From NCBI RefSeq assembly GCF_002109385.1, contig NZ_CP020814.1, positions 2,379,501 through 2,443,500 of the forward strand: a DNA stretch of 64,000 nt. Direction: 5' to 3'. Positions 56,611-58,153 of this stretch are shown here, piece by piece. Source of the stretch: Halalkalibacter krulwichiae. GTDB lineage: Bacteria > Bacillota > Bacilli > Bacillales > Bacillaceae_D. A program made the position numbers and the translations under genes. The notes beneath the pieces are model-generated. The model made no database searches and had not been told where the DNA came from. It saw only the letters and a program-made list of their open reading frames with translations. Within the stretch, counting starts at the first letter, position 1, and every line of letters starts with the position of its first letter.

Positions 56611-56750
56611 AACTACATAATACGCTTCATTGGCTTCCATTACTTCGAACGCTGTCTCATTTTATCAAAATATGCGCTTGCCTTGGAAATAATCGAGGAT
56701 TGATATGCTGAAATGTTGCTTTTCCTAATATAATCATGCTAATAAATAAA

Positions 56751-56791
56751 AACAGATCCACTTAACAATCGTTAAATGGACCTGTTTTTAT
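56751..56791. terminator. Bidirectional terminator
   Basis: AACAGATCCACTTAAC pairs with GTTAAATGGACCTGTT (wobbles), flanked by TTTTTA on the + strand and TTTTTATTTATT on the minus strand; it closes both the MntP/YtaF gene and the peptide gene. Confidence 0.75.
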
Positions 56792-56812
56792 TTATAACTT
56801 TCACAATCAAAT

Positions 56813-56935
56813 TCAAAAGGCTTGATCAACAGTTTTAACTCGATCGCTTCCATTTGGAATTGCTAAATCAGATGTTTGCGGAACTGCTAAAACGATTAAA
56901 GCAATGGCCACTATACCTAACATAGCTTTTTTCAT
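56813..56935 (-). CDS. Exported 40-residue Phr/AimP-like signal peptide precursor
   Basis: ATG at 56935, TGA at 56813-56815. The start MKKAMLGIVAIALIVLAVPQ is a classic short Sec signal (KK, then a hydrophobic core). A polar segment follows, ending RVKTVDQAF. This is the shape of Phr and AimP pheromone precursors, whose mature peptide is cut from the C-terminal part. Its AAGGAGG ribosome site lies inside the last codons of the receptor gene (stop 56941-56943), so the two are translationally coupled. The mature peptide is unknown; TVDQAF or a nearby 5-6-mer is a guess. Confidence 0.75.
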   Translation of the reverse strand: MKKAMLGIVAIALIVLAVPQTSDLAIPNGSDRVKTVDQAF

Positions 56936-56940
56936 AACCA

Positions 56941-57936
56941 TCACCTCCTTCCCCCATTATTCAATTGTTCCAGAGGTAACTGTTGAAAGTAATAATCACC
57001 TGCTAATTCAAAATATTTACTTGATTTTTGAAAATAGAGATGTTCACCTGTCGCTAAGCCTCGATAATACTGTTCAAAACCATGAACATAATCGTTACCA
57101 ATTCCAGCCTTTACTTCATCCAGTACAACCAAAGCTTTTTCTCTTTGATTCTTTTTAATCAAGTAAAAGACTAGCTCCAGTTTCTCGTCCATCCTTGTTT
57201 CATAATCTAAATTTAAATTAACTTTCTCTGACTCATTCCAATAACACAATGTAAAGTTCCTGTTCATTTGGGCCTGCGTCAATATTCTAGTATGTTGAAT
57301 AAGTTGTGCAATTTGTATAGAAGCTTCAAAATGCTTGAGGGCCTGTTTTCGATCAGAAAGGATATAAGAATTTCCTAAATTGTTATAGGCGATTGCTTTC
57401 ATAAGTGGTGTTAACGCAATTTCTAACAATTCTTTGCCGCAAGCTCTTGATTGTTCAAGCTCATTTTGATGAAGATGAATCGCTTGCATGATTAACTTTT
57501 GTCTACAAAGTAGTGATGTTTTCATAAATCCATCTTGGAGATTCGGAATTTCTACTTTAACAAGTTCACCCAACGAGGTCCTCATTTCAAAATTTTTCAT
57601 ATCATAATAATTATAAAGTTGAAAAACTTTAATCAAAGTCGATAATTCTTTTGATTGAACTCTCTTATAGGTTAATTGCTTAGTTACGTCAATTATATCT
57701 TTCTCTTGCTTATATACTAAATGATCAATTAAATATACCTCTGCCCACTCTCTGCTTTCTTCATTTGAACTCATTAAAAGCTTTTCCATTAACTTTTCAA
57801 GCAAATCTGATTTACCATTTATAACTAGATATTCCAAAGAAACTCTAGCTAGGTATGAATCTGGGTCAATATGAGCAACAAACAATTCTAGGTCATCAAT
57901 CGAATTAAATAGATCTGCTGTTATTGTTTTATACAT
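56941..57936 (-). CDS. AimR/Rap-like TPR peptide receptor without DNA-binding head
   Basis: A 331-residue all-helical repeat protein. The segments LARVSLEYLVINGKSDLLEK, MKAIAYNNLGNSYILSDRKQ, ALKHFEASIQIAQ, YYRGLATGEHLYFQKSSKYF and QQLPLEQLNNGG follow the C-terminal TPR-like domain of AimR arbitrium receptors. AimR proteins are about 380-390 residues with an N-terminal helix-turn-helix; this one begins roughly where that ends, and no HTH is encoded just upstream. GGGGG precedes the ATG. It is followed by the exported peptide gene. RNPP membership is well supported; DNA binding is not expected, so a protein target (as for Rap) is inferred. Confidence 0.8.
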   Translation of the reverse strand: MYKTITADLFNSIDDLELFVAHIDPDSYLARVSLEYLVINGKSDLLEKLMEKLLMSSNEESREWAEVYLIDHLVYKQEKDIIDVTKQLTYKRVQSKELSTLIKVFQLYNYYDMKNFEMRTSLGELVKVEIPNLQDGFMKTSLLCRQKLIMQAIHLHQNELEQSRACGKELLEIALTPLMKAIAYNNLGNSYILSDRKQALKHFEASIQIAQLIQHTRILTQAQMNRNFTLCYWNESEKVNLNLDYETRMDEKLELVFYLIKKNQREKALVVLDEVKAGIGNDYVHGFEQYYRGLATGEHLYFQKSSKYFELAGDYYFQQLPLEQLNNGGRR

Positions 57937-58153
57937 ATACCAACCCCCTTAATTTTATTATTCAGAAACATAATGATGACTATTTCGGACACTTTACTTT
58001 TTTTTCCTTCTTTTTCTTCACCAAAATCTTTTTTAGGTCTTTGTACCCGACTATTTCATTATTCATTGTTTTCCTTTTTCTAGGTAATTAACTATACGAA
58101 TCATTTCATAGTCGAATATGCTACTAAAGACTATACAGAAATGGGGGATCATA

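Follow-up and report, generated by a model that had tools for sequence, protein, structure and literature searches.

What does a peptide receptor of the AimR family do in a bacterial chromosome once its DNA-binding head is gone? The question is raised by a two-gene locus in the window, by which is meant the whole 64,000-nucleotide stretch of Halalkalibacter krulwichiae DNA analysed here (contig NZ_CP020814.1). On its reverse strand, a gene for a 331-residue receptor built of tetratricopeptide repeats (TPRs; 56941..57936) is followed by one for a 40-residue, exported-looking propeptide (56813..56935), and the initial annotation saw in the two a possible chromosomal signalling pair of the arbitrium or Rap type. 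The reading that is probable, with some room left for doubt, is that of a chromosomal peptide-pheromone pair, in which an AimR-type receptor without the helix-turn-helix (HTH) responds to an exported and re-imported peptide and has a protein partner as its output. Its computed basis is homology, a predicted fold, the absence of the HTH, an origin in one clade, the pairing with a peptide gene, and a conserved and partly tandem-repeated peptide core.

The receptor and its missing head

The receptor frame runs from an ATG at 57936 to a TGA ending at 56941. Residues 19-326 match the Pfam profile PF22871 (AimR; E 1.6e-68), the match to the NCBIfam equivalog NF038310 covers profile positions 63-364 of 365, and the alignment to solved AimR chains begins at chain residue 62-71. 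Because the latter two matches begin past it, the HTH part is absent from the receptor. Upstream of the ATG there are just four further open codons (stop-to-stop frame, 335 aa), and the predicted fold places only two short helices (7-11 and 16-22) ahead of the first repeat. The last ~12 residues of AimR, which form its capping helix, are missing as well. In structure comparison of the predicted receptor AimR was the first match, in keeping with the initial annotation, which had described a headless AimR-like protein beginning near the end of the HTH. The expected likeness to Rap fared less well; it is present and modest, since a TPR protein that is unrelated comes close to it in score. No match to PF18801, the N-terminal three-helix bundle of Rap, was found in the receptor among Pfam matches up to E 1.

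A protein search returned 15 relatives, comprising 14 headless proteins (325-343 aa) and one with a head (391 aa), and those named by organism belong to Halalkalibacter, Evansella and, in one case, Alkalihalobacillus. By whole-genome search, the headless gene occurs in 5/13 genomes of the window's genus, in 4/4 of a genus labelled g69 and in 4/35 of a third family, one genome of which carries two. The totals are 14 headless genes in 13 genomes and, with the relatives from the protein search, 23 distinct headless proteins. Six of 397 genomes drawn from the order carried the gene at E 1e-30, the window's own among them; among 398 drawn from the class (E 1e-50), the window's own alone was headless, and three others matched with full-length genes. 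A single-protein query against genome contigs returned no related loci. In G044 (contig 7, 92182-100446; L009, L028), seven full-length AimR-family genes lie close together; downstream of the one inspected comes a propeptide whose repeats contain GG.

A tree built on the TPR part separates the 20 headless from the 22 full-length rows without mixing (support 99/99) and needs one change, so that, most simply, the head would have been lost once, in a clade that spans three families. Three headless proteins (that of G432 and the two G434 copies) were left out of the tree and of the 20-row alignments, and are included in the 23-protein counts. The HTH columns are empty in 20/20 aligned headless proteins, and the lengths and frames of all 23 are without it. 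No HTH remnant was recognised upstream of ten headless loci (1.5 kb each, save for G010, where the contig breaks off after 228 bases), the best chance match reaching E 0.12 in a scan that recovered its control locus, and none of the 14 headless genes has an internal stop. A loss by mutation in this one genome, with an HTH still in frame in relatives, is thus not what the clade displays.

Five headless proteins tested against NF038310 start at profile position 57-72 (P0017 covers 3-365) and score 188-210 bits, far above the cut-off of 70, and public annotation therefore labels them lysis-lysogeny receptors. Most named members of the clade are called 'AimR family lysis-lysogeny pheromone receptor' by NCBI, which is misleading for a chromosomal protein without a DNA-binding domain.

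The TPR body has changed along with the loss of the head. In that of SPbeta AimR, K79, R82, N109, N143 and K145 are reported to contact the DNA backbone (PMC6458997). Lysine occupies the K79 position in 0/23 headless proteins, 8/9 phage or plasmid receptors and 14/20 other full-length receptors; for K145 the counts are 3/23, 9/9 and 16/20. N109 is retained in 9/23, 9/9 and 14/20 and R82 in 23/23, 9/9 and 19/20, respectively, while the N143 position is variable in all groups. On the peptide-binding side, D360, described as holding the Arg of AimP (PMC6458997, PMC6340889), is Asp in 20/23 headless, 9/9 phage or plasmid and 4/20 other full-length proteins. The AimP-binding F276 and N239 are kept in 22/23 and 15/23 headless proteins. 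Since N206, R228, T236 and N329 occur in 0/20 headless rows and N202 in 3/20, the headless receptors, to judge from these columns, would not hold their peptide in quite the way in which AimP is held.

The two halves of the headless receptors also vary unequally. The ratio of mean pairwise difference in the C-terminal, peptide-binding half to that in the N-terminal half is 1.42 (95% 1.23-1.66), the N-terminal half being the less variable; it is 1.87 in the window's branch and 1.47 in the Evansella-type proteins, as against 1.10 in phage or plasmid AimR and 0.98 in other full-length receptors, a set so much more diverged that saturation may level its ratio. By tree length the values are 1.79 versus 0.80, and some caution is due because the g69 headless proteins (1.32) are indistinguishable from the g69 full-length paralogue (1.24). 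Such a pattern would fit a fixed partner on the N-terminal half and a changing signal on the C-terminal half.

The peptide gene and its core

The ATG of the propeptide gene (56935-56933) lies five bases past the receptor TGA. Its Shine-Dalgarno sequence, AGGAGG (56944..56949), consists of the final two Arg codons of the receptor (56949-56944), eight bases ahead of the ATG, an arrangement that the initial annotation had located exactly and that suggests coupled translation. The 40 codons specify a basic start, a hydrophobic core and a polar tail, and may accordingly be read, as before, as a Sec-type signal with a short polar tail. A strong hairpin of 20 pairs with a T tail (56747..56790; z -7.9 for 56736-56812), found by folding of the sequence 3' of the peptide gene, resembles an intrinsic terminator. 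With their 5-base spacing, the AGGAGG in receptor codons and this terminator-like hairpin, the two genes appear to form a small, separate unit.

This arrangement recurs well beyond the window. A propeptide gene lies directly downstream, on the same strand, in 13/14 headless genes, and after the fourteenth comes a second headless receptor, itself followed by such a gene; in G434 (L108:5620-7889), the headless receptors stand in tandem with a single peptide gene downstream of the second. All 13 propeptides share the core [SND]-x-R-[VI]-x, with a Pro five residues ahead of the core Arg in nine. Although the motif was picked after inspection of the data, it appeared in at most 4/13 across 20,000 shuffles of the propeptide tails, and it is missing from four propeptides of full-length AimR-type receptors. 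The peptide gene is therefore conserved with its receptor, and the pairing goes beyond chance.

In the window, the core is GSDRVK (56834-56851), the putative mature signal, within codons for PNGSDRVK (56834..56857); its exact ends are provisional. The relatives carry GSDRVK, GSDRVN, DNIRIN, DNIRVN, TSPRIE, TSPRIQ, GSPRIQ, VDFRVR, ASFRVR and ASFRVC. In six propeptides the core is repeated two to six times, with copies that differ by silent codon changes, and it is these changes that are telling, because the copies were selected as exact protein matches. Contrary to what the initial annotation had expected, what the aligned propeptides share is an internal core and not a common C-terminus. Only in G421 does a core copy, the last one, close the protein, which ends right after R-V-R, and this hint suggests that the mature peptide may end just after an R-V-R-type core. 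In the AimPs of SPBc2 and phi3T, the terminal hexapeptides are GMPRGA and SAIRGA; their Arg is the fourth of six residues, just as it is in GSDRVK.

Proposed mode of action and genomic setting

Taken together, these features outline a peptide-gated switch, of which the export, processing, import, binding, conformational change and protein partner are the parts that we infer. Sec would export the propeptide, and cleavage outside the cell would release a short peptide around GSDRVK (or PNGSDRVK), to be re-imported by an oligopeptide permease. The peptide would then bind the concave groove of the receptor, its Arg pairing with D314, the counterpart of AimR D360, and would close the TPR superhelix, with a change in what can be held by the conserved N-terminal half. 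As the receptor has lost both its DNA-binding head and the DNA-facing lysines, it would act, in the manner of Rap, by binding a protein partner instead of an operator. The initial annotation likewise favoured a protein over DNA as the target, a view to which the lysine loss and the more constrained N-terminal half lend support.

The neighbours examined around the pair in the window include no phage genes, as had been noted earlier. Downstream and convergent is an MntP/YtaF-like protein, above the Pfam cut-off and under that for YtaF; upstream and divergent is a CotS-family coat protein (TIGR02906, 315 bits); and the remainder are a glycosyltransferase, an epimerase, a UDP-sugar dehydrogenase, odhA and three small open reading frames without a family. 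A coat-glycan neighbourhood is found in five same-genus loci; in the window, G001, G006 and G009 the pair and the cotS-like gene diverge, and in G010 the pair is on the opposite side of the glycosyltransferase. In the other two families, the neighbours are PRPP synthetase, thioesterase, aldo/keto reductase, chromate transporter or PEP carboxylase. Since neighbours differ between families, spore-coat control was rejected as a general function; the sporulation role suggested at the outset retains the same-genus neighbourhoods, and the link is weak. A trans-acting protein target fits these differing settings better than a neighbouring gene does.

A conserved 96-aa gene that adjoins the pair in four loci was also rejected as the partner, as it is present in 10/13 same-genus genomes, including receptor-less ones, and missing from the window genome. 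This gene (L064:10636-10926; kin in L063, L065 and L066) has no Pfam match, is found close to the cotS-like gene in several genomes of the genus, and in its G008 match carries two in-frame TGA codons. In 4/4 g69 genomes (L068-L071), a near-identical stretch just upstream of the headless gene contains the palindrome TGGAATAATTCCA, a possible operator.

Other explanations are less probable. The headless protein might act as a sponge or dominant negative, with no partner of its own, shutting down another AimR system by binding a peptide or by pairing with a full-length phage or host AimR. Dimerisation of AimR is reported to run through the C-terminal cap (PMC6340889), and this cap is retained in the g69 and Evansella-type members; all four g69 genomes also encode a full-length AimR paralogue, and a simple scan gave no peptide gene for it. 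However, the cap is missing from all 12 window-branch proteins. PF22871 matches only once in the window genome, which hence has no full-length AimR through which the headless protein could act, and the other four same-genus carriers have one match each. A sponge would, moreover, have no need of the constrained N-terminal half, and the peptide gene has been retained, all of which makes this role quite unlikely. In two g69 genomes, the neighbours of the full-length paralogues (L109, G205 C1:1885000-1897000; L110, G181 C15:28000-40000) resemble, by eye, what we take to be molybdenum-cofactor genes.

Control of genes through a separate DNA-binding protein, with the receptor as anti-repressor or co-activator, for example of the divergent spore-coat operon at 58118, is unlikely as well. 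It draws on the divergent placement in the four loci named above and on a plasmid Rap styled, in the title of its report, an anti-repressor of conjugation (PMC7430634), but the position is not kept in G010 or in the two other families. Since the DNA-binding protein would itself be a protein partner, this reading is compatible with the preferred pheromone pair. It is very improbable that the gene is what is left of a prophage arbitrium module in decay, retained by chance, even though AimR genes belong mostly to mobile elements (87% of AimR hits, as reported; PMC9765709), the head has been lost and the window's branch has lost the tail too. Against decay stand the intact reading frames, the single clade over three families, and the repeats kept at the protein level despite silent codon changes. 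Phage and plasmid records hold relatives at <=29% identity only, and a pattern scan of viral contigs with alignment found no headless relative, which speaks against close relatives only, as known phage AimRs were also missed.

Relation to arbitrium and Rap systems

With the arbitrium AimR-AimP pairs of SPbeta and phi3T, the locus shares a homologous TPR receptor (over AimR residues ~43-377), the order of receptor then peptide on one strand, a Sec-type propeptide, and the signal-core Arg with its receptor Asp (D360). It differs in that its clade has no HTH, has lost DNA-facing lysines, has changed several AimP-anchoring residues, and is chromosomal without phage neighbours among the genes examined. 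Where arbitrium has a single C-terminal RGA (hexapeptide xxxRGA), the clade has a core xxxR[VI]x that is internal or repeated. Rap-Phr offers an HTH-less TPR receptor with an adjacent propeptide, and tandem pheromones in one propeptide are known in Rap systems (PMC11343458), whereas the window receptor is without the PF18801 bundle. On the features compared, the pair is AimR by descent and a full member of neither system by their defining features, and it probably works like a Rap-Phr pair.

Close kin may already have been catalogued. The chromosomal 'Subfamily 21' systems of Alkalihalobacilli are reported to fall inside AimR in a tree of sequences (PMC12700828) and may well include the window clade, so that the pair may already be listed as a candidate subfamily; where that report names HTH losses, it gives Rap and subfamily 17 and describes none for subfamily 21. 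Among titles and abstracts found by literature search, none described an HTH-less AimR clade.

Rap has been described as the sole RRNPPA subfamily without a DNA-binding domain (PMC9765709); elsewhere, HTH loss is on record for subfamily 17, from Anoxybacter fermentans (PMC12700828). Of the AimR systems that lie in chromosomes outside prophages, almost 90% are reported to have no propeptide (PMC9765709), and the headless clade is a clear exception. PF18801 matched in 0/18 genomes of carriers and non-carriers, and the absence of Rap rests on this one model, which among 14 control genomes matched in Bacillus subtilis and, oddly, in Methanocaldococcus jannaschii. PF20038 had no match in the window genome or in any control and is uninformative. 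Tentatively, and with the balance somewhat against it, an arbitrium-type receptor in alkaliphilic Bacillaceae-type bacteria without a recognisable Rap may have lost its head once, left the phage world and become a second Rap of independent origin, a protein inhibitor gated by a pheromone and in control of a host decision such as sporulation or competence. If a separate HTH loss did occur inside AimR with the peptide kept, the passage from DNA reader to protein binder would be a repeatable route, and the headless clade would provide a natural comparison for locating the TPR surface that carries the output.
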